Source: Flavobacterium galactosidilyticum
GTDB lineage: Bacteria > Bacteroidota > Bacteroidia > Flavobacteriales > Flavobacteriaceae
DNA length: 64,000 nucleotides
NCBI RefSeq assembly: GCF_020911945.1
Contig: NZ_CP087135.1
Coordinates: 1,178,001 to 1,242,000, forward strand
Direction: 5' to 3'
Shown: piece by piece, positions 3,001-61,002 of the stretch
How positions within the stretch are numbered: position 1 is the stretch's first letter
Layout of the letters: every line of letters starts with the position of its first letter
Made by a program: the position numbers and the translations under genes
Notes under the pieces: generated by a model
What the model was told of the DNA's origin: nothing
What the model saw: only the letters and a program-made list of their open reading frames with translations
Databases searched by the model: none

Positions 3001-6000
3001 TAGTGCCTCGGCAACTATTACCCCTGGTTTTAATTATGTTTTCACGTACACTACTAATTCTTTTGCTGGTTGTCCTGCTGGCTCGGCTGATATAGCTGTT
3101 TTTAATAGTGCAGTTCCAGCTACACCATACGCTGGTCCAGATCAAAGTATTTGTACCTCAGGCGGTACTTCAGTAACTATGGCAGCAACAGGAACTCCGG
3201 GAACCTGGGTAAGAGTTAGCGGGCCAAATACACCTGCAATATCTAGTGCAACTAATCCAAATGCTGTCCTTTCAGGTTTGGTAGAAGGCTTGTACGTATA
3301 TCAATGGACTACTAGCAATGGATTTTGTGCAACCTTAAATGATGTTGTACGAATTTATGTTTACGATCCGCCAACTGCAGCGAATGCTGGACCAGATCAA
3401 ACTTCTTGTCAACTAGCAACAAAACTAGATGCAACGGTGCCTTTAAGAGGAATTGGTAAATGGACTTTGACCACAGATCCTTCAAATGGAGGTATCATTA
3501 TTGATAGTCCGAATGATCCAAAATCTAAATTAACGATTGCGAATCCATATTTATTACCAATAGGAACCTACACCTTTACGTGGACAGTAACTAATGGTCC
3601 ATTACCTTACGTATGTGTTTCAAGCACGGACACTGTAAATATTAATTTTTCAGCAGTACCGCCAACTCCAGCGAATGCAGGACCAGATCAAACTTTGTGT
3701 GGGGCTACGAGTGTAACCATGAATGCAAACAATATTAATCCAGGTATAGGTACGTGGACTCAGGTTTCAGGACCTAGTACAGGAGTATTCTCGGATAAAT
3801 TTAGCCCACAAGCTACGGTGACTGGTTTAGTAAGTGGTGTTTATGAATTTAAATGGACAAGTTCTAATACTGGTGGCGGATGTAAATTAGAAGACAATGT
3901 AAAAGTGACAATCAGTCCTGCTGTTGCCAACGTAAATGCGGGGCCTGATCAATTTCTTGGGGAGTACAATACAGTAACAATGGCTGCCCTGAACCCTTCA
4001 CCAAATGTGGGTGTTTGGTCTATAGTATCAGGACCCAATACTCCTTTGATCTTAAATGTAAATAGTCCTACAACTCAAATAGCAGGAACCATTCCAGGAA
4101 CTTACGTCCTTAGATATACTGTAGCAAACGGTATTTGCGCAGAAAAATCGGATGACGTAGTAATTGTACTGACAGGACAAACTGATTTGAGTTTGCTTAA
4201 ATCAGCAAATACTACTACTCCTGCTGTGGGATCTACAGTAACTTTTACGGTAGTGGTAAAAAATAATGGAGCTCGAAATGCTACTGGAGTTGCGGTAAAT
4301 GATATACTGCCTTCAGGCTTTACTTTAGTTCCAGGTAGCGTTTCTAATGCAGGGATTGTTAATACAGGAAATAATAGTATTATTTGGTCTGGTTTATCAA
4401 TTGCAAACGGTGCTACGTTAAATTTAACCTATCAAGTTAAAGTGAATGCAACGACTGCTGCGGCAAATGAATATAGAAATACAGCTCAAATAACAGCAAG
4501 TGATCAAATTGATCCAAATTCTACACCAAATAATAATGTTTCAACAGAAGATGATCAAAGTACGGTAACGTTGATACCTTCGCCTCGAATTGATTTAGCG
4601 ATAACGAAACAAATAAATAATACCATACCAAATGTGGGATCTACAGTTCAATTCACTATTGAAGTTGTAAACAATGGACCAAGTACTGCTACTGGTGTAG
4701 TTGCCACTGATCAGTTACCAACCGGTTATACATTTTCTAGTGCAACGCCATCTATTGGGACTTACAACGCCACTTCTGGTGCTTGGACAATAGGCAATTT
4801 AGCAAACGGAGCAAAAGCAACTTTAACTATTTCTGCTACCGTAAACGCAACTGGAAATTATGTTAATACAGCAACAGTAAAGAGTACTGAAATTGATGTA
4901 AACCCTGCTAACGATAATAGTGTTGTTTCTAGTATACCAAGAGCAATTGCAGATTTAAGTTTAACAAAAACGGTAACTGGAACTCCAAATGTAGGTAGTA
5001 ATGTTACTTTTACAATAACAATTACAAATGCTGGACCAAGTGTAGCGACAGGGGTAAATGTAGTTGATTATTTACCTTCAGGGTATACTTATTTAACTCA
5101 TACTAGTACAGGAACAACTTATTCTAATGTTACAGGTTCGTGGAATATAGGAACTCTAAATAGTAGTGCTTCAAGAGTTTTAATAGTTATTGCTAGAATA
5201 AATCCTACGGGTGATTATAGAAATACTGCTCAAGTAGTAAGTTCTAATGAATTTGACCCTGATTCAACGCCAGGAAATAATAATGCAGCAGAAGATGATC
5301 AGGCACAAGTAGTTATTACACCAATTCAGAGAGCTGACTTATCAGTTGTTAAAACAGTAGATCTTGCTACTCCACGAGTAGGTGATAATGTGAAATTTAG
5401 AATTGCATTAAACAATGCAGGACCAAGTGATGCTACTGGAGTTGTAGTAAATGATTTATTGCCGTCAGGTTATACTTTTGTGAGCTATACTTCAACTTCT
5501 GGTCTATATAATTCCACTTCTGGAAATTGGACACTTTCAGGAAGTGTTATTAATGGAAAAACAGAATATTTAGATATTGTAGCCAAAGTTAATCCTATAA
5601 CAGGAACAGCTAATGAATATAGAAATAATGCTCAGGTAATTGCAAGTGGTCAGACAGATCCAGATTCTATACCAAATGATGGACTAGGAGATGATTTTTC
5701 AACTGTAACTACTGTTCCAACCGCTTTAATTGATTTGTCATTGACTAAATCAGTTGATAACATTAGTCCTTCAGCAGGATCAAATGTAGTATTTACTGTA
5801 AGAGTTTCAAATGCAGGTCCAAGTACTGCTACTGGAGTACAAGTTAGAGATGTATTGCCTAGCGGTTACACTATTGTCGGTGCAACACCTTCAAGTGGAA
5901 CATACACTAATGCAACTGGTTTATGGACTATTGCAACTATTGCAAATGGAGCTTCGGCAGTTTTAACTGTTACAGCTACAGTTAATGCAACTGGAAATTA

Positions 6001-9000
6001 CACCAATGTTGCTGAAATTGTAGCAGCTGATCAAACCGATGTAAATTCTACACCAGGGAATAATATTTTGACTGAAGATGATCAGGATCAAGTAACCATA
6101 TCCCGAGGTCCATTAGTAGATTTAAGTTTGACTAAATCTGTTAATAATAATACACCTATTGTTGGAGAAAACGTAACTTTTAGAATTACGATTTCTAACG
6201 CTGGTCCAAGTGAAGCAAATGGAGTTGTAGTTACAGATAAATTACCTTCTGGATATTCATTTGTTAGCTCTGCGCCATCTGTTGGAACTTATAATAATAT
6301 ATCAGGTTCTTGGACCGTAGGAAATTTAGCTAATGCTGGAACTGCCACTTTAGACATTACAGCAAAAGTATTGCCTACTGGTAATTACAACAACATTGCT
6401 GAAGTGACAGGAGTAAATGAAGTAGATAGTAACTCTACTCCTGGTAATAATGATGCTACTGAAAACGATCAAAGCGAAGTTGTTATAACTCCTGTACAAA
6501 GTGCTGATTTATCTGTTGTTAAAACGGTAAATATAACTACGCCAAAAGTAGGCGATACTGTTACGTTTACTATTGCAGTTAAAAATGACGGGCCTAGCAA
6601 CGCTACTGGTGTTGTTATAAAAGACATGCTGCCTTCTGGTTACGAGTTTGTTAGTGCAAGCCCTACTGCTGGCATGTATAATACCACAACTGGATTGTGG
6701 ACAGTTTCAAGACCAATTACAGCCAATACTACAGAGACTATTCTGATAACAGCTAAAGTTTTAAAGAATGGTAGCTATGTAAATACTGCTGAAGTAATTG
6801 CAAGTGATCAACCAGATCCAGATTCTACACCAAATAATACTATTGGAAGTGAGGATGATCAAAGTACTGTAACAACTACACCGTCTGCTTTAGTAAATCT
6901 TGCAGTAGTGAAAAGAATTAATAATGTCACTCCAGACGTAGGATCTACAGTTGTATTTACTCTTGAAGTTGTAAATAATGGACCAAGTGATGCAACAAAT
7001 GTTGTAGTTACTGATAATTTACCAAGCGGTTATACATTTTCTACTGCAACGGCATCAATTGGAACTTATAGTGCTGGAACAGGCCAATGGACAATAGGAA
7101 GTTTAGCAAATGGAGCAAAAGCAACTATAGATATTTCTGCAACTGTAAATCCAACAGGTATTTACCTTAATACAGCTACAGCAACAAGTACTGAAACTGA
7201 TGGAAATCCTGATGATAATACAAGTAGTGTTTCTAGTACACCAAGAGCAATTACTGATTTAAGTTTAACAAAAACAGTAAGTGCAGCTCCACACAATGTT
7301 GGTAGTGATGTTACTTTTACAGTAACAGTTACTAATGCTGGACCAAGTGCAGCGACAGGGGTAAATGTAGTTGATTATTTACCTTCAGGATATACTTATG
7401 TCAGCCATACTAGTGTTGGAGTATATTTTAAAGATAATGGTTCTTGGAACATTGGAACAATAAATAATGGAGCATCGGCAGTATTAACTGTAGTTGCCAG
7501 AGTAAACGCTACGGGCGATTATAGAAATACTGCTCAAGTAGTAAGTTCTAATGAATTTGACCCTAACTCAACGCCTGGAAATAACAGTCCAACAGAAGAT
7601 GATCAGGCGCAAGTTGTTATTACTCCTGTTCAGATGGCTGACTTATCGGTTATTAAAACGGTAGATGTTGCTACACCAAGAGTAGGTGATAATGTGAAAT
7701 TTAGAATTGCATTAAACAATGTAGGACCAAGTGATGCTACTGGAGTTGTAGTAAATGATTTATTGCCGTCAGGTTATACTTTTGTGAGCTATACTTCAAC
7801 TTCTGGTCTATATAATTCCACTTCTGGAAATTGGACACTTTCAGGAAGTGTTATTAATGGAAAAACAGAATATTTAGATATTGTAGCCAAAGTTAATCCT
7901 ATAACAGGAACAGCTAATGAATATAGAAATAATGCTCAGGTAATTGCAAGTGGTCAGACAGATCCAGATTCTATACCAAATGATGGACTAGGAGATGATT
8001 TTTCAACTGTAACTACTGTTCCAACCGCTTTAATTGATTTGTCATTGACTAAATCAGTTGATAACATTAGTCCTTCAGCAGGATCAAATGTAGTATTTAC
8101 TGTAAGAGTTTCAAATGCAGGTCCAAGTACTGCTACTGGAGTACAAGTTAGAGATGTATTGCCTAGCGGTTACACTATTGTCGGTGCAACACCTTCAAGT
8201 GGAACATACACTAATGCAACTGGTTTATGGACTATTGCAACTATTGCAAATGGAGCTTCGGCAGTTTTAACTGTTACAGCTACAGTTAATGCAACTGGAA
8301 ATTACACCAATGTTGCTGAAATTGTAGCAGCTGATCAAACCGATGTAAATTCTACACCAGGGAATAATATTTTGACTGAAGATGATCAGGATCAAGTAAC
8401 CATATCCCGAGGTCCATTAGTAGATTTAAGTTTGACTAAATCTGTTAATAATAATACACCTATTGTTGGAGAAAACGTAACTTTTAGAATTACGATTTCT
8501 AACGCTGGTCCAAGTGAAGCAAATGGAGTTGTAGTTACAGATAAATTACCTTCTGGATATTCATTTGTTAGCTCTGCGCCATCTGTTGGAACTTATAATA
8601 ATATATCAGGTTCTTGGACCGTAGGAAATTTAGCTAATGCTGGAACTGCCACTTTAGACATTACAGCAAAAGTATTGCCTACTGGTAATTACAACAACAT
8701 TGCTGAAGTGACAGGAGTAAATGAAGTAGATAGTAACTCTACTCCTGGTAATAATGATGCTACTGAAAACGATCAAAGCGAAGTTGTTATAACTCCTGTA
8801 CAAAGTGCTGATTTATCTGTTGTTAAAACGGTAAATATAACTACGCCAAAAGTAGGCGATACTGTTACGTTTACTATTGCAGTTAAAAATGACGGGCCTA
8901 GCAACGCTACTGGTGTTGTTATAAAAGACATGCTGCCTTCTGGTTACGAGTTTGTTAGTGCAAGCCCTACTGCTGGCATGTATAATACCACAACTGGATT

Positions 9001-12000
9001 GTGGACAGTTTCAAGACCAATTACAGCCAATACTACAGAGACTATTCTGATAACAGCTAAAGTTTTAAAGAATGGTAGCTATGTAAATACTGCTGAAGTA
9101 ATTGCAAGTGATCAACCAGATCCAGATTCTACACCAAATAATACTATTGGAAGTGAGGATGATCAAAGTACTGTAACAACTACACCGTCTGCTTTAGTAA
9201 ATCTTGCAGTAGTGAAAAGAATTAATAATGTCACTCCAGACGTAGGATCTACAGTTGTATTTACTCTTGAAGTTGTAAATAATGGACCAAGTGATGCAAC
9301 AAATGTTGTAGTTACTGATAATTTACCAAGCGGTTATACATTTTCTACTGCAACGGCATCAATTGGAACTTATAGTGCTGGAACAGGCCAATGGACAATA
9401 GGAAGTTTAGCAAATGGAGCAAAAGCAACTATAGATATTTCTGCAACTGTAAATCCAACAGGTATTTACCTTAATACAGCTACAGCAACAAGTACTGAAA
9501 CTGATGGAAATCCTGATGATAATACAAGTAGTGTTTCTAGTACACCAAGAGCAATTACTGATTTAAGTTTAACAAAAACAGTAAGTGCAGCTCCACACAA
9601 TGTTGGTAGTGATGTTACTTTTACAGTAACAGTTACTAATGCTGGACCAAGTGCAGCGACAGGGGTAAATGTAGTTGATTATTTACCTTCAGGATATACT
9701 TATGTCAGCCATACTAGTGTTGGAGTATATTTTAAAGATAATGGTTCTTGGAACATTGGAACAATAAATAATGGAGCATCGGCAGTATTAACTGTAGTTG
9801 CCAGAGTAAACGCTACGGGCGATTATAGAAATACTGCTCAAGTAGTAAGTTCTAATGAATTTGACCCTAACTCAACGCCTGGAAATAACAGTCCAACAGA
9901 AGATGATCAGGCGCAAGTTGTTATTACTCCTGTTCAGATGGCTGACTTATCGGTTATTAAAACGGTAGATGTTGCTACACCAAGAGTAGGTGATAATGTG
10001 AAATTTAGAATTGCATTAAACAATGTAGGACCAAGTGATGCTACTGGAGTTGTAGTAAATGATTTATTGCCGTCAGGTTATGCTTTTGTGAGCTATACTT
10101 CAACTTCTGGACTTTATGATGCGACTAATGGAAATTGGACACTTTCAGGAAGTGTTTTTAATGGAAAAACAGAATATTTAGATATTATAGCCAAAGTTAA
10201 TCCTATAACAGGAACAGCTAATGAATATAGAAATACTGCTCAGGTAATTGCAAGTGGTCAGACAGATCCAGATTCTATACCAAATGATGGAATAGGAGAT
10301 GATTTTTCAACTATATCTACTGTTCCAACAGCGTTAATTGATTTGTCATTGACTAAATCAGTTGATAACATTAGTCCTTTAGTAGGATCAAATGTAGTAT
10401 TCACTGTAAGAGTTTCAAATGCAGGTCCAAGTACTGCTACTGGAGTACAAGTTAGAGATGTATTGCCTAGCGGTTACACTATTGTCGGTGCAACACCTTC
10501 AAGTGGAACATACACTAATGCAACTGGTTTATGGACTATTGCAACTATTGCAAATGGAGCTTCGGCAGTTTTAACTGTTACTGCTAGAGTTAATGCTTTA
10601 GGAGATTATATAAATGTTGCTGAAGTTATGCAGGCTAATGAAACTGATGTAAATTCAACACCAGGCAATAATATTTTGACTGAAGATGATCAGGATCAAG
10701 TAACCATATCCCGAGGTCCATTAGTAGATTTAAGTTTGACTAAATCTGTTAATAATAATACACCTATTGTTGGAGAAAACGTAACTTTTAGAATTACGAT
10801 TTCTAACGCTGGTCCAAGTGAAGCAAATGGAGTTGTAGTTACAGATAAATTACCTTCTGGATATTCATTTGTTAGCTCTGCGCCATCTGTTGGAACTTAT
10901 AATAATATATCAGGTTCTTGGACCGTAGGAAATTTAGCTAATGCTGGAACTGCCACTTTAGACATTACAGCAAAAGTATTGCCTACTGGTAATTACAACA
11001 ACATTGCTGAAGTGACAGGAGTAAATGAAGTAGATAGTAACTCTACTCCTGGTAATAATGATGCTACTGAAAACGATCAAAGCGAAGTTGTTATAACTCC
11101 TGTACAAAGTGCTGATTTATCTGTTGTTAAAACGGTAAATATAACTACGCCAAAAGTAGGCGATACTGTTACGTTTACTATTGCAGTTAAAAATGACGGG
11201 CCTAGCAACGCTACTGGTGTTGTTATAAAAGACATGCTGCCTTCTGGTTACGAGTTTGTTAGTGCAAGCCCTACTGCTGGCATGTATAATACCACAACTG
11301 GATTGTGGACAGTTTCAAGACCAATTACAGCCAATACTACAGAGACTATTCTGATAACAGCTAAAGTTTTAAAGAATGGTAGCTATGTAAATACTGCTGA
11401 AGTAATTGCAAGTGATCAACCAGATCCAGATTCTACACCAAATAATACTATTGGAAGTGAGGATGATCAAAGTACTGTAACAACTACACCGTCTGCTTTA
11501 GTAAATCTTGCAGTAGTGAAAAGAATTAATAATGTCACTCCAGACGTAGGATCTACAGTTGTATTTACTCTTGAAGTTGTAAATAATGGACCAAGTGATG
11601 CAACAAATGTTGTAGTTACTGATAATTTACCAAGCGGTTATACATTTTCTACTGCAACGGCATCAATTGGAACTTATAGTGCTGGAACAGGCCAATGGAC
11701 AATAGGAAGTTTAGCAAATGGAGCAAAAGCAACTATAGATATTTCTGCAACTGTAAATCCAACAGGTATTTACCTTAATACAGCTACAGCAACAAGTACT
11801 GAAACTGATGGAAATCCTGATGATAATACAAGTAGTGTTTCTAGTACACCAAGAGCAATTACTGATTTAAGTTTAACAAAAACAGTAAGTGCAGCTCCAC
11901 ACAATGTTGGTAGTGATGTTACTTTTACAGTAACAGTTACTAATGCTGGACCAAGTGCAGCGACAGGGGTAAATGTAGTTGATTATTTACCTTCAGGATA

Positions 12001-15000
12001 TACTTATGTCAGCCATACTAGTGTTGGAGTATATTTTAAAGATAATGGTTCTTGGAACATTGGAACAATAAATAATGGAGCATCGGCAGTATTAACTGTA
12101 GTTGCCAGAGTAAACGCTACGGGCGATTATAGAAATACTGCTCAAGTAGTAAGTTCTAATGAATTTGACCCTAACTCAACGCCTGGAAATAACAGTCCAA
12201 CAGAAAACGATCAAGCTCAAGTAGTTATTACTCCTGTTCAGCTGGCTGACTTATCAGTTGTTAAGACAGTAGATCTTGCTACTCCAAGGGTTGGAGATAA
12301 TGTGAAATTTAGAATTGCATTAAACAATGCAGGACCAAGTGATGCTACTGGAGTTGTAGTAAATGATTTATTGTCGTCAGGTTATGCTTTTGTGAGCTAT
12401 ACTTCAACTTCTGGACTTTATAATTCCACTTCTGGAGATTGGACACTTTCAGGAAGTGTTTTTAATGGAAAAACAGAATATTTAGATATTATAGCCAAAG
12501 TTAATCCTATAACAGGAACAGCTAATGAATATAGAAATACTGCTCAGGTAATTGCAAGTGGTCAGACAGATCCAGATTCTATACCAAATGATGGAATAGG
12601 AGATGATTTTTCAACTATATCTACTGTTCCAACAGCGTTAATTGATTTGTCATTAACTAAATCTGTAGATAACATTGCTCCTCAAGCGGGATCAAATGTT
12701 GTATTTACTGTAATCATTAAAAATGCTGGGCCAAGTACTGCTACGGGTGTAGAAGTTATCGATAAATTACCTAGTGGATATGATTTTGTAAGCGATGATG
12801 CATCAGGAAGCTATGTTAATAATATTTGGAGTATTCCAACTATTGCAGCAGGTGCTTCTGTAGTTTTAAATGTTACAGCCACAGTAAAAGCAGATGGAAT
12901 TTATACCAATGTTGCTGAAATAACTAAAGCCAATGAAACCGATGCGAATTCTACACCAAATAATAATATTTTGGCTGAAGATGATCAAGATCAAGTAACC
13001 ATATCCCGAGGACCATTAGTAGATTTAAGTTTAACTAAAAAAGTTGATAATAAAACGCCTAATGTTGACGAGAATGTCGTATTTACTATTGAAGTTACAA
13101 ATGCTGGACCAAGCGATGCAACTGGAGTTGTGGTTACAGATAAATTACCTTCTGGATATTCATTTGTGAATCCTTCTATCCAATCCGTTGGAAGTTATGA
13201 TCCTATATTAGGTTCTTGGACAATAGGAAACTTGGCAAACAAAGCAAAAGCAACTTTAAACATTACAGCTAAAGTTTTACCTACTGGTAATTACAACAAC
13301 ATTGCTGAAGTTACAGGAACCAATGAAGTAGATGCAAATTCTACTCCTGGAAATAATGACGCGACAGAAAATGATCAAAGCGAAGTTATTGTAACTCCTA
13401 TACAAAGTGCTGATTTATCTGTTGTTAAAACAGTTGATTTAGTAGGTACTCCAAAAGTAGGTGATACTGTTACGTTTACTATTGCAGTGAAAAATGATGG
13501 ACCTAGTGACGCTACAGGTGTTGTTATAAAAGACTTGCTGCCTTCTGGTTACGAGTTTGTTAGTGCAAGCCCTACTGCTGGCATGTATAATAGAACAACT
13601 GGATTGTGGACAGTTTCAAGACCAATTAAAGCAAATACTACAGAGAATATTCCAATCACTGCCAAAGTTTTAAAGAATGGTAATTATACAAATACTGCAG
13701 AAGTTACTGCAAGTGATCAACCAGATCCTGATTCTACACCAAACGATGGAACTGGTGATGATTTTTCAACAGTAACAACTACACCGTCTGCTTTAGTAAA
13801 TCTTGCAGTAGTGAAAAGAATTAATAATGTCACTCCCGACGTAGGATCTACAGTTGTATTTACTCTTGAAGTTATAAATAATGGCCCTAGTGATGCAACA
13901 AATGTTGTAGTTACTGATAATTTACCAAGCGGTTATACATTTTCTACTGCAACGGCATCAATTGGAACTTATAGTGCTGGAACAGGCCAATGGACAATAG
14001 GAAGTTTAGCAAATGGAGCAAAAGCAACTATAGACATTTCTGCAACTGTAAATCCAACAGGTATTTACCTTAATACAGCTACAGCAATAAGTACTGAAAC
14101 TGATGGAAATCCTACTGACAATACTAGTAGTGTTTCTAGTACACCAAGAGCAATTGCTGATTTAAGTTTAGTTAAGACCGTAGTAAATGCCTCTCCAAAT
14201 ATTGGTGAAAATGCTATATTTAATATAGTTGTTACAAATAATGGCCCTAGTGATGCAACCAATATTGTAGTTACTGATAGGCTTCCTTCTGGTTATTCAT
14301 TTGTGAGTGCAACGACTTCAGTAGGAACATATGATAGTAATTCTGGCGGTTGGGATGTTGGAAATTTAGCCAGCGGTAACTCTGCTAGCTTAACTATAAA
14401 TGCAAAAGTATTAGCTACAGGAAATTATAACAATGTTGCAGAAGTAACGGGTTCTGACCAATTTGATCCCAACTCGACACCTGGAAATAATAATCCACAA
14501 GAAAATGATCAGAGTGTTGTAGTAGTTACTCCGGTTAACGTAGCTGATTTAGTTACAACAAAAACAGTTGATAAATCAAATCCAAATCAAGGAGATATTG
14601 TACAGTATACCATAACAGTTGTAAATAATGGTCCAAGCATAGCGACTGGAGTAAATTTAATGGATAATTTGCCTGTAGGAACAACTTATGTTTCTCATAT
14701 TGCAACTGGAGGAACGGTAAATACGTTTTCTGGTGGACAATGGGCTATTGGAAATATAAATATTGGATCTTCTGCAACTTTAGTAATTAGGGCAAGAGTT
14801 ACTGCAGCAGGAACGGTTAGTCAAACACCTATTGTAAATACAGTTACTCCAGCGGCAGGAAATGAATCTGATCCAACAACTGTAGGAGATGATCTAACAG
14901 AGCCAATTATTGTGACAAGTTCAGATTTAGTAACTGAAAAAAAGGTAAGTAAATCAAATCCTAGTGAAGGTGAAACGATTACTTACAGCATTAGAGTTAC

Positions 15001-17473
15001 TAATAACGGTCCAAGTGATGCAACGGGAGTTCGTTTAACAGACATTCTTCCAATTGGAGTTACTTATGTTAGAAATAATCAAGGAGCAGATTATAATTAT
15101 GGTTCTGGTATCTGGACAATAGGAGATCTTGCAAATGGAGCAACTAAAGTTTTAGATATTAATGTAATAATCAATTCTGGATCGGCAGGTAAAACAATTG
15201 TAAATACAACGACTGCTGCTAAAGGAGATCAATCAGATCCAACAACTGTTGGCGACGATTTAACAGAAACCATCATAGTTCAAAACGGTGCAGATGTTGT
15301 ATTGACTAAAGTAGTTAACAATAGAACTCCTAACATTGGAGAAACAGTAACTTATACCGTTACAGTAACCAATAAAGGAACAACATTAGTAACAAACTTA
15401 GTGGTGAAAGATGACCTTCCAGCTGGCTTAACCTTTGTTTCAGCAACTCCAGGAAAAGGAGTGTGGACAACTCCAAATTGGACAGTAGGTACATTACAGC
15501 CAGGTGAAGAAGGATCTATTGAAATTAAAGCTATTGTAGATTTAAATCAAGGAGGAAGTGTATTAACAAATACAGTATCTAATACACAAGATCAATTTGA
15601 TACCAATATAACTCTTGATGATCCTACTGAAACAATAACAGTTACAAGTTTAGATTTAGCAGTTGTAAAAAAGGTAAACAATGCGAGACCAAATGAAGGA
15701 GAAACTATTCGTTATACGATAACAGTCACTAACAACGGTGCTAGTAATGCAACCAATGTAAGTTTAGTGGATAAATTACCTGTAGGAGTTACTTATGTAA
15801 GTGATATAGTTTCAGCAGGAAATTATAACAATGGTTCAGGATTATGGACAATAGGTAATCTTATAAATGGTGCGGTTGCGACTCTTACTATTGATGCAAA
15901 AGTTAATACAGGAACTTATGATACAACAATAACAAACACAACTACTGCGGTAAAAGCAGATCAGGCAGATTCTAATGCAGCGAATAACATTGGCAGTGTT
16001 GCAATTACACCAACAGCATTTATAGACTTGAGTTTAACAAAAGAAGTTGTTGGTAATGTTACTAATCCTGCTGTAGGCGATATAATTACTTTTGAAGTAA
16101 GAGTGATGAACGACGGGCCTACAAAAGCAACAGGAGTTGAGGTAGTAGATTTAATACCGTCTGGATATAAATTTATCAACTATAGCTCAACTATAGGTAC
16201 TTACAGTCCTTCAACAGGTCTTTGGAAAGTAGGATTTGTAGAAGCAGGAAACACAGCAGTTTTATTAGTTGATGTAAAAGTTCTAGACAATGGAAATTAC
16301 ATGAACTGTGCAGAAATTACCAAAGCAAACGAACCAGATATCGATTCTACTCCGGGTAATGGTAATGTTACAGAAGATGATTATGCTTGTGCATCTGCTC
16401 CGCCAAATCAATCAGTAGACCTTGCAGTTGTTAAAACCATTTTGAAGAACAACACAAATCCAAAAGTGAATTCTCAAATATCATTCGAGATTCTATTAAC
16501 AAACAATGGAAATATAGATGCAACAAATGTTGTCGTGTCCGATTTACTTCCTTCGGGCTATACGTTTGTAAATTATAGTTCTACTAAAGGAATTTATGAT
16601 TATGTAACTGGCGACTGGAAAGTAAGCAAAATACTAAATGGCGAAACAGAGATTTTAATTGTTGATGTAATTGTAAATGAATCTGGCGACTACTTAAATT
16701 GTGCAAGCATAAAAGCATTGCATCAAACAGATACAAATCCAGCAAATAATCAAAGCTGTATTGCTACAACACCTATAGCAGTTATAGATTTAGAATTAAC
16801 AAAAGAGGTAGATGAAATAAAACCTGTTGCAGAAACTAATGTTGAGTTTACGATTACATTGTCAAACAAAGGACCTAGTATAGGAACAGGTGTTGAAGTG
16901 AAAGACTTACTTCCAACTGGTTTCAATTTCGTAAGCGCTACAACTACAACTGGTGTTTATGATGCTACAACTGGAATTTGGAAAGTAGGAAGTATTGATG
17001 TTAATGCAATACAAACATTAAAAGTAAAAGCTTATGTATTACCGGTAGGTGAGTTTACAAACGTTGCCGAAGTTATAGCAGCTAATGAACTTGATGTTGA
17101 TTCAACTCCTGGAAACAACAAATTACAGGAAGATGATCAAGATGCTATAACAATAGAGCCTGAAGTTTCATTAGTTATGCCAGAAGGTTTCACTCCTAAT
17201 GGAGATGGCATAAATGATGTTTTTGAAGTAGAGCACTTACAAGTATTGTATCCTAACTTTAGTATGGAAATTGTAAATAGGTATGGAAACATTGTTTACA
17301 ACTACAAACATAACGGAGACAAATTCAAAACGCCACTATGGTGGGATGGTCATTCAACAGGTAGATGGAATTTCTCAAAAGAAATGCTTCCTACTGGAAC
17401 TTATTTCTATACTATTTACTTTAATAATGATGAAAGAAAACCGCAAACGGGTTGGATCTATTTAAAAAAATAA
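11..17473 (+). CDS. Giant T9SS-secreted adhesin with PKD/Ig-like and DUF11 repeats
   Basis: This is a 5820-residue surface protein. Residues 1 to about 37 form a signal peptide ending in VYAQ. Residues about 40-1390 hold about 15 Ig/PKD-like modules of 85-100 residues, many opening with AGPDQ. From residue 1391 to about 5715 I count about 34 DUF11 domains of roughly 128 residues, each starting with DLSLTK or a variant and containing GPS.ATGV and LPSGY motifs. The last 100 residues start with the FTPNGDGINDVF motif and end in GWIYLKK, the gliding-motility C-terminal (T9SS type B sorting) domain. It should therefore cross the outer membrane through T9SS and sit on the cell surface, in the style of SprB-type adhesins. 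A SprF homologue follows 63 bases downstream, which fits type B cargo. The ligand is unknown. The start codon is only 10 bases from the window edge, so the promoter is not visible. Confidence 0.93.
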   Translation: MEKNYSFTQKKISLYNKLSYFLALFFATILLNTNVYAQNCTTNAGLSRTICENTPFTLNGVVGGNIVSSKWTQVSGPSVVIENPNILNTNVLGAVGGNVYTFRLSSVCTAGVSFQDVVITVNKITTARTGANIMGCPGTYNLSGNAPLNSGETGLWTIVGSNASGVVISTPSSPTSAITFPTGSIGTSTLRWTITGPGPASTRCSSQADMTVTNYGGVVIANAGPDQNLSACYDAKQGANLNASVAGNGTGTQIGTWGFVSGPSVPVISSVNNPTTGISNLVEGSYVFRWTVMGPCAQGSDTVTINVPAATQGITTAVATNPNQNFCSGVTQTLLQGNVPLRAGETVEWTQIAGPTVTIVNPNSPTTQVTGLDGTSNYTFRYTIKGGAANPSCSNFADVNIRYYLGSATISLNGGVNVLSLAENITAGTVSITTTGGNANAPQLISSPAGTSPVFSISGNNLNFSNLLKAGTYTFRVRHYTNGDIKTSCSEAFDDVNIIVSLSPPGANGGTSLALACGVTSGTLSGNVPDATKGHIGRWSQLNGPTTTTFSNVFSTNPVISNLMPGIYTYRWTITGGLSGIDKFSDVTITVSAPPTSTITPNLVTSCAGNSLLLTGNELVGGTTGLWQYVSGPGTPTFSDPTKTTTSVMGLLPSSTYVFSWTVTSPNPTNVSTCGPSTSNVTVTTLADEAPSSANAGPDACFSPATNSATLGAAAPTVGTGTWSFVSGPNTPVITNPALPNTTVTGLVNGIYEFEWTTSNLPCGNPSKDRVKITIAAEPTSAAGPDQNFICGSTIAMAANAPTAGLLGTWIQISGSGGWSVDNINSPTAVFSNLAEGNYEFQWKVAKGSCTTATDNLTFRIQLPPTTANAGGDQTICGGTTATLAALPVTQGVGTWSVISGPNNPTITTANGNASTVTGLVTGTYTLRWTTSSGGICAESRDDMVLNVSAPVSVITPQNLCAATSVLLQANTGSSGVWTLSSSTGGPVPIISAIGPNSASATITPGFNYVFTYTTNSFAGCPAGSADIAVFNSAVPATPYAGPDQSICTSGGTSVTMAATGTPGTWVRVSGPNTPAISSATNPNAVLSGLVEGLYVYQWTTSNGFCATLNDVVRIYVYDPPTAANAGPDQTSCQLATKLDATVPLRGIGKWTLTTDPSNGGIIIDSPNDPKSKLTIANPYLLPIGTYTFTWTVTNGPLPYVCVSSTDTVNINFSAVPPTPANAGPDQTLCGATSVTMNANNINPGIGTWTQVSGPSTGVFSDKFSPQATVTGLVSGVYEFKWTSSNTGGGCKLEDNVKVTISPAVANVNAGPDQFLGEYNTVTMAALNPSPNVGVWSIVSGPNTPLILNVNSPTTQIAGTIPGTYVLRYTVANGICAEKSDDVVIVLTGQTDLSLLKSANTTTPAVGSTVTFTVVVKNNGARNATGVAVNDILPSGFTLVPGSVSNAGIVNTGNNSIIWSGLSIANGATLNLTYQVKVNATTAAANEYRNTAQITASDQIDPNSTPNNNVSTEDDQSTVTLIPSPRIDLAITKQINNTIPNVGSTVQFTIEVVNNGPSTATGVVATDQLPTGYTFSSATPSIGTYNATSGAWTIGNLANGAKATLTISATVNATGNYVNTATVKSTEIDVNPANDNSVVSSIPRAIADLSLTKTVTGTPNVGSNVTFTITITNAGPSVATGVNVVDYLPSGYTYLTHTSTGTTYSNVTGSWNIGTLNSSASRVLIVIARINPTGDYRNTAQVVSSNEFDPDSTPGNNNAAEDDQAQVVITPIQRADLSVVKTVDLATPRVGDNVKFRIALNNAGPSDATGVVVNDLLPSGYTFVSYTSTSGLYNSTSGNWTLSGSVINGKTEYLDIVAKVNPITGTANEYRNNAQVIASGQTDPDSIPNDGLGDDFSTVTTVPTALIDLSLTKSVDNISPSAGSNVVFTVRVSNAGPSTATGVQVRDVLPSGYTIVGATPSSGTYTNATGLWTIATIANGASAVLTVTATVNATGNYTNVAEIVAADQTDVNSTPGNNILTEDDQDQVTISRGPLVDLSLTKSVNNNTPIVGENVTFRITISNAGPSEANGVVVTDKLPSGYSFVSSAPSVGTYNNISGSWTVGNLANAGTATLDITAKVLPTGNYNNIAEVTGVNEVDSNSTPGNNDATENDQSEVVITPVQSADLSVVKTVNITTPKVGDTVTFTIAVKNDGPSNATGVVIKDMLPSGYEFVSASPTAGMYNTTTGLWTVSRPITANTTETILITAKVLKNGSYVNTAEVIASDQPDPDSTPNNTIGSEDDQSTVTTTPSALVNLAVVKRINNVTPDVGSTVVFTLEVVNNGPSDATNVVVTDNLPSGYTFSTATASIGTYSAGTGQWTIGSLANGAKATIDISATVNPTGIYLNTATATSTETDGNPDDNTSSVSSTPRAITDLSLTKTVSAAPHNVGSDVTFTVTVTNAGPSAATGVNVVDYLPSGYTYVSHTSVGVYFKDNGSWNIGTINNGASAVLTVVARVNATGDYRNTAQVVSSNEFDPNSTPGNNSPTEDDQAQVVITPVQMADLSVIKTVDVATPRVGDNVKFRIALNNVGPSDATGVVVNDLLPSGYTFVSYTSTSGLYNSTSGNWTLSGSVINGKTEYLDIVAKVNPITGTANEYRNNAQVIASGQTDPDSIPNDGLGDDFSTVTTVPTALIDLSLTKSVDNISPSAGSNVVFTVRVSNAGPSTATGVQVRDVLPSGYTIVGATPSSGTYTNATGLWTIATIANGASAVLTVTATVNATGNYTNVAEIVAADQTDVNSTPGNNILTEDDQDQVTISRGPLVDLSLTKSVNNNTPIVGENVTFRITISNAGPSEANGVVVTDKLPSGYSFVSSAPSVGTYNNISGSWTVGNLANAGTATLDITAKVLPTGNYNNIAEVTGVNEVDSNSTPGNNDATENDQSEVVITPVQSADLSVVKTVNITTPKVGDTVTFTIAVKNDGPSNATGVVIKDMLPSGYEFVSASPTAGMYNTTTGLWTVSRPITANTTETILITAKVLKNGSYVNTAEVIASDQPDPDSTPNNTIGSEDDQSTVTTTPSALVNLAVVKRINNVTPDVGSTVVFTLEVVNNGPSDATNVVVTDNLPSGYTFSTATASIGTYSAGTGQWTIGSLANGAKATIDISATVNPTGIYLNTATATSTETDGNPDDNTSSVSSTPRAITDLSLTKTVSAAPHNVGSDVTFTVTVTNAGPSAATGVNVVDYLPSGYTYVSHTSVGVYFKDNGSWNIGTINNGASAVLTVVARVNATGDYRNTAQVVSSNEFDPNSTPGNNSPTEDDQAQVVITPVQMADLSVIKTVDVATPRVGDNVKFRIALNNVGPSDATGVVVNDLLPSGYAFVSYTSTSGLYDATNGNWTLSGSVFNGKTEYLDIIAKVNPITGTANEYRNTAQVIASGQTDPDSIPNDGIGDDFSTISTVPTALIDLSLTKSVDNISPLVGSNVVFTVRVSNAGPSTATGVQVRDVLPSGYTIVGATPSSGTYTNATGLWTIATIANGASAVLTVTARVNALGDYINVAEVMQANETDVNSTPGNNILTEDDQDQVTISRGPLVDLSLTKSVNNNTPIVGENVTFRITISNAGPSEANGVVVTDKLPSGYSFVSSAPSVGTYNNISGSWTVGNLANAGTATLDITAKVLPTGNYNNIAEVTGVNEVDSNSTPGNNDATENDQSEVVITPVQSADLSVVKTVNITTPKVGDTVTFTIAVKNDGPSNATGVVIKDMLPSGYEFVSASPTAGMYNTTTGLWTVSRPITANTTETILITAKVLKNGSYVNTAEVIASDQPDPDSTPNNTIGSEDDQSTVTTTPSALVNLAVVKRINNVTPDVGSTVVFTLEVVNNGPSDATNVVVTDNLPSGYTFSTATASIGTYSAGTGQWTIGSLANGAKATIDISATVNPTGIYLNTATATSTETDGNPDDNTSSVSSTPRAITDLSLTKTVSAAPHNVGSDVTFTVTVTNAGPSAATGVNVVDYLPSGYTYVSHTSVGVYFKDNGSWNIGTINNGASAVLTVVARVNATGDYRNTAQVVSSNEFDPNSTPGNNSPTENDQAQVVITPVQLADLSVVKTVDLATPRVGDNVKFRIALNNAGPSDATGVVVNDLLSSGYAFVSYTSTSGLYNSTSGDWTLSGSVFNGKTEYLDIIAKVNPITGTANEYRNTAQVIASGQTDPDSIPNDGIGDDFSTISTVPTALIDLSLTKSVDNIAPQAGSNVVFTVIIKNAGPSTATGVEVIDKLPSGYDFVSDDASGSYVNNIWSIPTIAAGASVVLNVTATVKADGIYTNVAEITKANETDANSTPNNNILAEDDQDQVTISRGPLVDLSLTKKVDNKTPNVDENVVFTIEVTNAGPSDATGVVVTDKLPSGYSFVNPSIQSVGSYDPILGSWTIGNLANKAKATLNITAKVLPTGNYNNIAEVTGTNEVDANSTPGNNDATENDQSEVIVTPIQSADLSVVKTVDLVGTPKVGDTVTFTIAVKNDGPSDATGVVIKDLLPSGYEFVSASPTAGMYNRTTGLWTVSRPIKANTTENIPITAKVLKNGNYTNTAEVTASDQPDPDSTPNDGTGDDFSTVTTTPSALVNLAVVKRINNVTPDVGSTVVFTLEVINNGPSDATNVVVTDNLPSGYTFSTATASIGTYSAGTGQWTIGSLANGAKATIDISATVNPTGIYLNTATAISTETDGNPTDNTSSVSSTPRAIADLSLVKTVVNASPNIGENAIFNIVVTNNGPSDATNIVVTDRLPSGYSFVSATTSVGTYDSNSGGWDVGNLASGNSASLTINAKVLATGNYNNVAEVTGSDQFDPNSTPGNNNPQENDQSVVVVTPVNVADLVTTKTVDKSNPNQGDIVQYTITVVNNGPSIATGVNLMDNLPVGTTYVSHIATGGTVNTFSGGQWAIGNINIGSSATLVIRARVTAAGTVSQTPIVNTVTPAAGNESDPTTVGDDLTEPIIVTSSDLVTEKKVSKSNPSEGETITYSIRVTNNGPSDATGVRLTDILPIGVTYVRNNQGADYNYGSGIWTIGDLANGATKVLDINVIINSGSAGKTIVNTTTAAKGDQSDPTTVGDDLTETIIVQNGADVVLTKVVNNRTPNIGETVTYTVTVTNKGTTLVTNLVVKDDLPAGLTFVSATPGKGVWTTPNWTVGTLQPGEEGSIEIKAIVDLNQGGSVLTNTVSNTQDQFDTNITLDDPTETITVTSLDLAVVKKVNNARPNEGETIRYTITVTNNGASNATNVSLVDKLPVGVTYVSDIVSAGNYNNGSGLWTIGNLINGAVATLTIDAKVNTGTYDTTITNTTTAVKADQADSNAANNIGSVAITPTAFIDLSLTKEVVGNVTNPAVGDIITFEVRVMNDGPTKATGVEVVDLIPSGYKFINYSSTIGTYSPSTGLWKVGFVEAGNTAVLLVDVKVLDNGNYMNCAEITKANEPDIDSTPGNGNVTEDDYACASAPPNQSVDLAVVKTILKNNTNPKVNSQISFEILLTNNGNIDATNVVVSDLLPSGYTFVNYSSTKGIYDYVTGDWKVSKILNGETEILIVDVIVNESGDYLNCASIKALHQTDTNPANNQSCIATTPIAVIDLELTKEVDEIKPVAETNVEFTITLSNKGPSIGTGVEVKDLLPTGFNFVSATTTTGVYDATTGIWKVGSIDVNAIQTLKVKAYVLPVGEFTNVAEVIAANELDVDSTPGNNKLQEDDQDAITIEPEVSLVMPEGFTPNGDGINDVFEVEHLQVLYPNFSMEIVNRYGNIVYNYKHNGDKFKTPLWWDGHSTGRWNFSKEMLPTGTYFYTIYFNNDERKPQTGWIYLKK
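5419..7722 (+). repeat. Adhesin super-repeat, copy 1 (2304 bp, six DUF11 domains)
   Basis: Landmark sequence such as AATTGCATTAAACAATG recurs at 5401, 7705, 10009 and 12313, giving an exact spacing of 2304 bp (768 codons). This copy is indistinguishable from copy 2 in every stretch I compared; the match of position x to x+2304 runs from about 5418 to about 7776. The boundaries are arbitrary in phase. Confidence 0.9.
7723..10026 (+). repeat. Adhesin super-repeat, copy 2 (2304 bp)
   Basis: In-frame second copy, nucleotide-identical to copy 1 wherever compared. Lack of silent differences indicates a very recent duplication or gene conversion, or, less likely, an assembly artefact. Confidence 0.9.
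10027..12330 (+). repeat. Adhesin super-repeat, copy 3 (2304 bp, partly diverged)
   Basis: This copy differs from copy 2 at scattered sites between about 10081 and 10660, then appears identical until about 12204. A fourth, clearly diverged copy with the same 2304-bp phase follows to about 14630, with conserved islands such as 13780-14090. The mosaic pattern suggests repeated unequal exchange or conversion. Confidence 0.85.
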
Positions 17474-27748: not shown

Positions 27749-27964
27749 TTTTTAAATTTTATCGAAATTTTCTTTAAGTGTGTAAAAATTACCCGTCTTA
27801 AATAACAAATTACCCATTATTCGCAGTTTTGTTTTTTTCGTTATAATTCTTAAGCACTTGTATGTGAGCTATATGTATATATTTATTAGTTGTAATTTTT
27901 AATGGTACGATTATTCTATTAAGGTAAATAATCAATATTATAATTAACTATTAAAGTAAGTATC

Positions 27965-28288
27965 ATGAAAAAATTAATTTTATCAGCAGCAATTGTTTTA
28001 GGAAGTTTATCAACTTATGCAACAGTAGTTCCAACTTCTACTGAAGTAATTAAAACAGTTTCACTTCAGGAAGAATACACCGAGGTTAAATTAGAAGAAG
28101 TTCCCGCAGCTATTAAAGAGGCTTTTAAAACTTCATTTCCAGAAGGAACATTAGATAAAGTATTTGTTAATGCTAAAAAAGAGTACAAACTAGATGTAAC
28201 TGTTGGAGAGAAAAAAGGGAATCTTTTTGCTGACGAAAATGGAAAATGGATTCAAAAAGAAGCATCAGAAACACCAGAGAAAAAATAA
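27965..28288 (+). CDS. Secreted PepSY-like small protein, copy A
   Basis: This 107-residue protein has a signal peptide (residues 1-20, ending STYAT) and a mature part of about 85 residues with VPAAIKEAFKTSFPEGTLDKV and YKLDVTVGEKKGNLFADENGKW. The pattern of an amphipathic helix followed by beta strands resembles the PepSY-like (PF11396) periplasmic families of Bacteroidota, which have no firm function. The next gene is a close tandem copy differing at few positions apart from the C-terminal tail. Both lie between the accC terminator and a terminator at 28866. I infer a periplasmic or outer-membrane-associated location. Confidence 0.75.
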   Translation: MKKLILSAAIVLGSLSTYATVVPTSTEVIKTVSLQEEYTEVKLEEVPAAIKEAFKTSFPEGTLDKVFVNAKKEYKLDVTVGEKKGNLFADENGKWIQKEASETPEKK

Positions 28289-28313
28289 TTAGAAACATTT
28301 AAATATGCATATC

Positions 28314-28646
28314 ATGAAAAAAATAATTTTATCAGCAGCAATCGTTTTAGGAAGTTTATCAACTTATGCAACAGTAGTTCCAACTTCTACTGAAGTAATT
28401 AAAACAGTTTCACTTCAGGAAGAATACACCGAGGTTAAATTAGAAGAAGTTCCCGCAGCTATTAAAGACGCTTTTAAAACTGCATTTCCAGAGGGAACGT
28501 TAGATAAAGTATTTGTTAATGCTAAAAAAGAATACAAACTAGATGTAACTGTTGGAGAGAAAAAAGGGAATCTTTTTGCTGACGAAAACGGAAAATGGAT
28601 TCAAAAAGAAACTAAAGAAGCAACTGAAGCACTGAAAAAACAATAA
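28314..28646 (+). CDS. Secreted PepSY-like small protein, copy B
   Basis: The start at 28314 (MKKIILSAAIVLG) matches copy A; an ATG nine bases upstream is out of line with the homologue. The product is 110 residues with the same signal peptide and PepSY-like mature part as copy A. More than 110 consecutive bases after the signal peptide are identical between the genes, and changes elsewhere are few, such as EAFKTSF to DAFKTAF. Only the last 10-12 residues differ (KEATEALKKQ here). It starts 25 bases after copy A and is most likely co-transcribed with it. This is a recent tandem duplication. Confidence 0.75.
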   Translation: MKKIILSAAIVLGSLSTYATVVPTSTEVIKTVSLQEEYTEVKLEEVPAAIKDAFKTAFPEGTLDKVFVNAKKEYKLDVTVGEKKGNLFADENGKWIQKETKEATEALKKQ

Positions 28647-39724: not shown

Positions 39725-39743
39725 TACCAAAATTAAAACTCCG

Positions 39744-40208
39744 ATGAGCAATATCAGAATCACAAAACAATTTAGTTTCGAAACCGGACACGCTTTATAT
39801 GGCTATGACGGGAAATGTAAAAATGTTCACGGGCATAGTTATAAATTGTCAGTAACCGTGATAGGATCACCAATTACGGATCGTTCTAATGTAAAATTTG
39901 GAATGGTGATTGACTTTACAGATTTAAAGAAAATTGTAAAAGAGGAAATCGTAGATCAATTTGACCATGCTACAGTTTTTAATGGCACAACGCCACACAT
40001 AGAATTAGCTAACGAATTAATGACTCGAGGCCATCATGTTATTTTAGTGGATTATCAACCAACGAGCGAAAACATGGTTGTTGATTTTTCACAAAGAATC
40101 ATCAATCGATTGCCAGAAGGAATCACTCTTTTTTCTTTAAAATTACAAGAAACTGATTCTTCTTTTGCGGAATGGTATGCTTCTGATAATATGAAATCTA
40201 TACTATAA
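39744..40208 (+). CDS. queD: 6-carboxytetrahydropterin synthase
   Basis: A 154-residue member of the 6-pyruvoyl-tetrahydropterin synthase/QueD family. The zinc ligands His16 (ETGHALYG), His29 and His31 (NVHGHSYKL) and the catalytic Cys25 (DGKCKNVHGH) are in place, as is the downstream FDHATVFNG and the C-terminal LQETDSSFAEW. QueD makes 6-carboxytetrahydropterin from dihydroneopterin triphosphate for queuosine and other 7-deazapurines. No queC, queE or queF is present in the window. The lpxH gene follows four bases after, so they share a transcript. Confidence 0.93.
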   Translation: MSNIRITKQFSFETGHALYGYDGKCKNVHGHSYKLSVTVIGSPITDRSNVKFGMVIDFTDLKKIVKEEIVDQFDHATVFNGTTPHIELANELMTRGHHVILVDYQPTSENMVVDFSQRIINRLPEGITLFSLKLQETDSSFAEWYASDNMKSIL

Positions 40209-58305: not shown

Positions 58306-58313
58306 TATATTTG
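58306..58313 (+). promoter_or_regulatory. Candidate -7 element for the antiporter gene
   Basis: TATATTTG matches TAnnTTTG, about 50 bases upstream of the ATG at 58363. Confidence 0.45.
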
Positions 58314-58362: not shown

Positions 58363-60671
58363 ATGAAAAAATATAAAAACACGGCTTTTTATTTCGGTGT
58401 AACAGGTGGTTTTTCTGCTTTAATTTATTGGATTATTAGTAAAGGCAAGTTGTTAGAAGCAAGTAAAACTATTGAAACTCCCGAAAGTGGCAACGGTTCT
58501 TGGAATGATTTTTTAGCTTCCATGCAGCATAATTTTCAAGATCCTCTAGCTATCCTTTTGGCACAAATTGTAACTATAATTCTTGTTGCTCGTTTTTTTG
58601 GATGGGTTTTTAAGAAAATTGGGCAACCGTCCGTTATCGGGGAGATTATAAGAAAATTGGGCAACCGTCCGTTATCGGGGAGATTATTGCTGGAATTGTA
58701 CTAGGTCCTTCTTTGTTAGGTATGTATTTTCCAGAATTTTCAGCGGCTCTATTTCCGGTAGAATCTTTAGGGAACTTAAAGTTTTTAAGTCAGATAGGTT
58801 TGATTCTTTTCATGTTTGTAATTGGGATGGAATTATATATGAAAGTCTTAAAAAATAAGGCGAATGAAGCAATAGTGATTAGTCATGCCAGTATTGTAAT
58901 CCCTTTTGCGCTGGGAATTGGTCTGGCTTATTTTGTATATGATCAATTTGCTCCCGAAGGAGTGAAGTTTCTTTCTTTTAGTTTATTTATGGGAATTGCG
59001 TTAAGTATCACTGCTTTTCCCGTTCTAGCTCGAATCGTGCAGGAAAGGGGAATTCATAAAACAAAATTAGGAGCGATAGTAATTACCTGTGCTGCCGCAG
59101 ATGACATTACTGCTTGGTGTATTTTAGCAGTTGTAATTGCCATTGTGAAAGCCGGAACGTTCGTTAGTTCCTTGTATATTATTTCGCTTGCAATACTGTA
59201 TGTGATGGTTATGATTTTCATCGTTAAACCATTTTTAAAAAGGATAGGTGATTTATACGGTTCAAAAGAGAGTATTGGTAAACCTGTTGTTGCTATCTTT
59301 TTCTTAGTATTAATTATGTCTTCGTACGCAACCGAGGTTATAGGGATTCATGCACTTTTTGGAGCATTTATGGCTGGTGCAATTATGCCAGATGTTCCTA
59401 AATTTAGATCTATTTTTATTGAAAAAGTCGAGGATGTTGCTTTAATTTTATTACTTCCTCTGTTTTTCGTTTTTACTGGTTTAAAAACAGAAATTGGATT
59501 GTTAAACGATCCATATCTTTGGAAAGTAACTGGATTTATTATTTTAGTTGCTGTTACTGGAAAATTTCTAGGAAGTGCTTTAGCCGCTAAATTTGTTGGA
59601 CAAAGTTGGCGCGATAGTTTAACAATTGGTGCCTTAATGAATACTAGAGGTTTGATGGAATTAATCGTTTTAAACATTGGATTAGAACTTAAAGTGTTGA
59701 CTCCTGAAGTTTTTACTATGATGGTTATCATGGCATTAGTAACAACATTTATGACTGGTCCAGCTTTAGATTTGATTAATTTTATTTTTAAAACGAAAGA
59801 TGGCGATCAAGTTATTCAAGCCGCAAATTTTAGTAAATACCGAATCTTAATTTCGTTTGGAAATAATGAAAAAGGAAAATCCTTATTGCGATTAGCGAAT
59901 AGTTTTATAAAAAAACAAAAAGGAGAATCTTGTATTACTGTTATGCACTTGTCGTTGAGTGATGAGGTGCATTCTTTTAATTTAGAAGATAAAGAGAAAA
60001 TTATTTTTCGTCCTATTGTTGAACAATCAAAATTATTAAATCAAGAAATAAAGACAATTTTCAAAGCGGCAGTTGATATAGAGAGTGAAATTGCTGAAGT
60101 TGCAAATCAAGGAGATTACGACTTGTTGTTAGTTGGTTTAGGGAAATCAATTTTTGAAGGAACTATTCTGGGAAAAGTTATTGGATTCACAACCAGAATT
60201 ATTAATCCGGATCGATTGATTGATAAGTTTACCGGAAAGGAAGGTTTGTTCGAAAACTCTCCTTTTGATGAAAGAACAAGGCAGATTATTTCGAAAACTA
60301 AGATGCCAATAGGGATTTTGATCGATAAGGATTTACAAGCTGTCGAACGTGTTTTTATCCCAATCTTTCGTACCGAAGATTCATTTTTGATCGAATATGC
60401 GCAGAAATTAATTTTTAATAACAATTCCGAAGTTGTAATTTTGGATGCAAATGGACATCTTCAAACTAATTTTGTTATGAAAAGCGCGCTCGATTCTTTA
60501 GAGCAGAAATACCCGAATAACATAAGTTTGATTTCTAGTCAAAAAATTGAAAAGGAATTTTTAGAGCAACAGGATTTAATGTTAATTAGTCTCGAAAGTT
60601 GGAAGCAATTAGTAGATTCAAGAATAATCTGGCTGAGTGAAGTACCTTCAGTCTTAATTTTAAAACAGTAA
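58363..60671 (+). pseudogene. Cation:proton antiporter (CPA2/Kef-type), frameshifted by 38-bp duplication
   Basis: Two open frames (58363-58704 and 58713-60671) are parts of one gene. In between, a 38-bp segment is repeated exactly. Removing one copy restores a single frame reading VIGEIIAGIVLGPSLLGMYF and a 756-residue protein. The reconstructed protein has about 12 transmembrane helices with the CPA2 motifs, for example FPVLARIVQERG, TCAAADDITAWCI, GAFMAGAIMP and MNTRGLMELIVLNIGLEL, and a C-terminal cytoplasmic region of about 300 residues. As written the gene makes only a 114-residue N-terminal fragment. The long second frame could be translated only from a weak internal start. The SMR gene follows after one base. 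Confidence 0.9.
58611..58686 (+). repeat. Exact 38-bp tandem duplication
   Basis: Positions 58611-58648 and 58649-58686 are identical (58687 also matches 58649). The unit is not a multiple of three, so it shifts the antiporter frame by two. Confidence 0.97.
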
Positions 60672-60672
60672 T

Positions 60673-61002
60673 ATGAATTGGATTTTATTGATTATTGGTG
60701 GTCTTTTTGAAGTTGGTTTTGCCACCTGTTTAGGGAAAGCCAAAGAAACTTCGGGTACGACATCAACGTTGTGGTTGTTAGGATTTTTAACATGTTTGGC
60801 GATAAGTATGCTATTGCTTTATAAGGCGACACAAACACTACCTATAGGAACGGCTTACGCGGTTTGGACTGGAATAGGAGCCGTAGGAACAGTGTTAGTT
60901 GGGATTTTTGTATTTAAAGAACCTGCTGATTTCTGGAGAATATTTTTTATCACAACACTAATTAGTTCAATAATTGGACTGAAATTTGTTTCAAATACGT
61001 AG
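60673..61002 (+). CDS. SMR family exporter (SugE/Gdx-like)
   Basis: A 109-residue four-helix membrane protein of the small multidrug resistance family. The essential Glu13 lies in GGLFEVGFATCLGKA and the helix-3 signature TLPIGTAYAVWTGIGAVGT follows at about 55-75. The sequence fits the SugE/Gdx subgroup (guanidinium and related cation export) better than the quaternary-ammonium EmrE type, but this is by motif memory only. It begins one base after the antiporter stop, so it shares its transcript, and may lose expression by polarity if the antiporter frameshift is real. A terminator follows. Confidence 0.9.
   Translation: MNWILLIIGGLFEVGFATCLGKAKETSGTTSTLWLLGFLTCLAISMLLLYKATQTLPIGTAYAVWTGIGAVGTVLVGIFVFKEPADFWRIFFITTLISSIIGLKFVSNT

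Follow-up and report, generated by a model that had tools for sequence, protein, structure and literature searches.

An exact 38-bp tandem duplication splits a CPA2-like antiporter gene in an assembled Flavobacterium genome

A gene whose reading frame is broken by a perfect tandem duplication raises the question of whether it has been lost, can be switched, is still productive or is in truth intact. Such a case was predicted for an antiporter gene of Flavobacterium galactosidilyticum. The locus lies in a window of 64,000 bases (G000:C1:1178001-1242000) from a genome that consists of a single contig of 3,530,395 bases. Positions refer to this window unless another locus is named, and the antiporter and SMR genes, the repeat and the promoter candidate described below are all on the forward strand.

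Results

At 58611-58687, TRF reported a repeat with a period of 38, 2.0 copies and 100% matches, the copies lying head-to-tail without a mismatch. Direct comparison likewise found the first copy of the unit (58611-58648) and the second (58649-58686) to be identical. Base 58687 is the first base of the unit again, and since the self-match runs for 39 bases, the position of the junction has an ambiguity of 1 bp. The exact 38-bp tandem duplication of the original prediction was thus confirmed in its start, end and length. Around it the frame is split. The upstream frame (58363-58704) starts at ATG 58363 and comprises 113 codons up to the stop TAG at 58702-58704. The downstream frame, open from its own stop at 58611 to 60671, holds 652 codons when counted from TTG 58713 (58713-60671), with a first ATG at 58722.

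The closest relative found was Flavobacterium weaverense DSM 19727, with 85% DNA identity over the antiporter gene and 94% protein identity between its antiporter and the window. Residues 1-96 of the sister protein map to 58363-58650 in frame +1, matching residues 1-96 of the upstream frame, the tail of which runs out of frame. Residues 83-756 map to 58647-60668 in frame +3. The two matches overlap in residues 83-96, which are found twice, each time in another frame. Taking away one copy leaves 2309 - 38 = 2271 bases, i.e., 756 codons and a stop, in agreement with the 756 amino acids of the sister protein. The prediction that a 756-residue antiporter is restored when one copy is removed hence holds.

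The downstream piece of 652 amino acids matches PF00999 (Na_H_Exchanger) with 180.5 bits (Pfam gathering threshold 26.2, E 5.7e-53), starting at profile position 38, and the intact sister protein reaches 212.8 bits over its residues 74-456, starting at profile position 2. For the upstream piece of 113 amino acids, no Pfam match was found at E ≤ 0.001. Among NCBIfam models, TIGR00932 of the CPA2 subfamily fitted best, with 155.8 bits for the sister and 128.4 bits for the window piece. Both scores are below the curated cut-off of 238.3 bits, and we therefore call the antiporter only CPA2-like. Residues 66-456 of the intact F. weaverense orthologue match the structures of NapA (PDB 4bwz, 5bz2) with an E of about 1e-30. 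This match spans the duplicated stretch. In contrast to NapA-type Na+/H+ antiporters, the window allele is not contained in a single open frame, and a further difference is that the family carries a C-terminal region of about 300 amino acids with a weak Usp match under the cut-off (E 0.037).

The gene had been described as switched off. The broken frame stands, and loss of antiporter function in the two-copy allele is likely, rather than certain, because an N-terminally truncated product could start at ATG 58722. Could the split allele hence still be useful? Start codons follow closely behind the stop, ATG 58722 lying 18 bases past it, and most of PF00999 is kept in the downstream frame; frameshifting within the overlap of the two frames (58614-58704) would be another route. 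However, a restarted protein would be devoid of residues 1-107 and of about the first 36 profile positions. As the downstream piece starts at profile position 38, such a product would lack the first membrane segments, the placement of which we take from NapA. In a scan restricted to canonical slippery heptamers, the overlap contained none, and the sole in-frame heptamer in 58580-58704, a T7 at 58593, leads into the stop at 58611; we therefore dismissed frameshifting. A productive two-copy allele thus appears improbable to us.

How old the lesion might be was estimated from a comparison of branches over 742 codons, with F. weaverense as the sister and ten outgroup loci. In total, 272 codons differ from the sister, 151 of which could not be polarised and were excluded from the branch counts. 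Codons changed only in the window gave an N:S of 10:41 versus 15:55 for those changed only in the sister (Fisher p = 1). Between window and sister, dN/dS was 0.035, similar to the 0.018, 0.030 and 0.033 of three pairs of intact relatives. From constraint, the age of the lesion would be at most about 4% of the branch, and from copy identity at most about 9%, both bounds being rough because the dS of 0.89 is high. The unchanged N:S on the window branch rejects an old pseudogene. The earlier conclusion that the event is new is thus supported, although unchanged constraint dates it more strongly than copy identity alone. As the remainder of the gene is under unchanged constraint, the lesion is either very young or not real, and the sequence fits both of these equally. 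Nor does the low N:S speak for a product that is still made, for it may reflect the time before the duplication.

In relatives, the gene is usually whole. We kept the best 80 of at least 565 named relatives found, a set that is biased towards good matches, and in each of the 80 the gene is a single open frame longer than 700 codons. A search for the 38-bp unit, covering the first 900 nt of this frame and allowing up to 12 mismatches, found it once in 71 of these 80, not at all within this mismatch limit in nine and twice in none. Recurrence of the duplication at this site was thus not seen among the best 80. All 14 rows for other genomes with query coverage of 1-2309 span 2271 bases, 38 fewer than the query. 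In a second search with 60 relatives, 23 matched at E ≤ 1e-200, the best, own genome aside, with 78% identity; again, the rows covering the whole query (six of six, all of them among the 14) span 2271 bases.

Across 150 genomes of the genus, own genome included, 127 match the intact sister protein at E ≤ 1e-100. By our reading of the table, 120 of the 127 have full-length open frames only, a number that includes matches down to 57% identity and thus possibly paralogues. Five (G001, G034, G080, G115 and G124) appear to be truncated by contig ends, and in two the gene is split within a contig, namely in the present genome (G000) and in G111. Both also have an intact homologue. In the present genome this is a paralogue at G000:C1:2568784-2571048 (L002), which shares 69% identity with the protein of F. 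weaverense. The G111 orthologue (L138, G111:C1:3639000-3649000) is split differently, a run of T having gained or lost one base, and its intact homologue lies a few kb away. A motif scan of 113 loci missed the conserved peptide in five of them (L003, L013, L020, L032 and L050), and no count given here rests on that scan.

These comparisons bear on the possibility that the locus switches as an evolved trait, in which frequent gain and loss of the duplication would turn the antiporter off and on. An exact repeat of 38 bp can in principle be lost again, and an exact direct duplication that breaks the frame from within, as in phase variation of the duplication type, is indeed present. Reversible duplications of this kind have precedents in pneumococci. 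Spontaneous duplications within the reading frames of capsule genes (the type 3 locus, cap8E and tts) are reported to stop their expression and to be able to revert (PMC4243769, PMC4022640, citing Waite et al. 2001, 2003). Tandem duplications are also described as a mechanism of hypermutation (PMC4235727). Against a switch stands the absence of a second unit from all 80 named relatives, although recurrence among relatives is a supporting test of our own that the pneumococcal cases do not require. Moreover, the gene encodes a transporter and not a surface antigen. In the sister, the single unit is preceded by TTTT and followed by TTGC, so that the ends have just one T in common; beyond this 1 bp, no pre-existing repeat was found at the duplication ends that could have served as a starting point. 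The DNA of 58600-58650 has no unusual fold either (z -0.06), and slippage driven by a hairpin was therefore also rejected. With 1 bp common to the ends and no notable fold, we saw nothing that would predispose the site. Phase variation as a trait, which the original prediction had raised, is thus not borne out, there being no sign of switching either, and we consider it very improbable.

The original prediction had also named a sequencing artefact, i.e., an assembly or consensus error in a true chromosome with one copy and an intact gene. Such an error would fit the lesion equally well, as there is no other decay, just one private lesion and unchanged constraint. On the other hand, the genome is a single contig with a completeness of 99.99% and a contamination of 0.03%, and its sequence does not look error-prone. 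In 464,000 bases, 13% of the genome, made up of the window and a further 400 kb, we found just three exact tandem arrays with periods of 20-600: the 38-bp pair, which has the longest unit, a 25-bp pair that lies between open frames, and a triple of 21 bp. Near-exact repeats were left out of this count. For exact arrays, these 464 kb thus gave no sign of a genome-wide artefact. From four stretches of F. weaverense, we took 69 frames of at least 110 codons, 40 of which match the window, 39 of them with at least 60% identity. Full-length mapping in one frame was obtained for 37 of the 39, all within 22061-63960; the two exceptions are the antiporter gene and one frame whose first 24 residues have no match. 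Judged by its sequence, the window is not rich in such errors, yet a single local one may be present. An artefact is thus less likely than a real duplication, but we still assign it a minor share of the probability, above that of a switch or a productive split allele.

Other repeats were noted on the way. One repetitive open frame of 5820 amino acids occupies 11-17473 and contains direct repeats of 2304 bp, with 9-mer markers at 5927, 8231 and 10535. At an offset of 2304, the ten 500-base bins of 5501-10500 are 90-100% identical, six of them at 100%. Because of these repeats, the length of the frame may vary by recombination or may be misjudged in the assembly. A near-exact tandem repeat with a period of 349 bp (1.9 copies, 97%) lies at 27961-28610, and long near-exact repeats with periods of 90 and about 330-406 bp cluster at L115 9205-11893 within the sampled sequence; both belong to the repeats left out of the array count. 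The exact 25-bp pair mentioned above, located at L118 15829-15880, is followed by an apparent degraded third copy. Finally, at 39735-40190 of the window, a sister frame (L136 4460-5056) matches from residue 25 on and probably has a different start.

One base after the antiporter stop, an intact SMR transporter gene begins (60673-61002). It matches PF00893 with 80.2 bits (gathering threshold 23.7), its closest NCBIfam model is SugE with a score below the cut-off, and it is 95% identical to that of the sister. The SMR gene adjoins the antiporter in 40 of the 78 relatives with enough sequence (tblastn, E ≤ 1e-8), with no match in the other 38; an earlier 39 of 76, obtained with a rough motif, is superseded by this count. 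Because some 2 kb in front of the SMR gene would no longer be translated, its expression could be lowered by polarity. About 50 bp before the antiporter ATG, a candidate promoter TAnnTTTG, which we take to be the Bacteroidota consensus of the -7 type, is found at 58306-58313. The motif occurs 126 times in the window versus a mean of 101 in shuffles, one of 100 of which had as many, and a single match therefore says little. Given these numbers, we also claim no SMR promoter for three matches inside the antiporter gene (60436-60530).

Discussion

We regard it as probable that the locus carries a recent and private frameshift, a loss-of-function allele that arose by illegitimate duplication and is possibly revertible. 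Illegitimate duplication is suggested because there is neither a starting repeat nor an unusual hairpin. During replication or end repair, a stretch of 38 bp would have been copied twice with an end homology of 1 bp, presumably where the gene encodes the first membrane segments. Translation from ATG 58363 would end at 58702, and no full-length antiporter is hence expected in the sequenced clone. No decay is seen in the remainder of the gene. The loss may be tolerated because of the intact, 69%-identical paralogue elsewhere in the genome, which could compensate for it. In principle, slippage between the two copies might restore the gene.

The pneumococcal capsule-gene duplications offer, by analogy, the closest precedent. 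They share their anatomy with the present case, a duplication within the reading frame. There, however, switching is reported to have been observed, whereas here we have one sequence, and the gene encodes an ion antiporter in a Flavobacterium. A mixed population of one- and two-copy cells would be conceivable too, in which the antiporter, and perhaps the SMR gene, is off in a heritable and revertible fraction, although without a starting repeat; we think this unlikely.

If the private duplication is real, the gene was caught shortly after it was inactivated, and its sequence may still offer a way back. The comparison of constraint between two branches is a simple check that helps to tell such new lesions from old pseudogenes. 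The case leaves the general view unchanged. By our table reading, this transporter family is kept whole in 120 of the 127 matching genomes of the genus.
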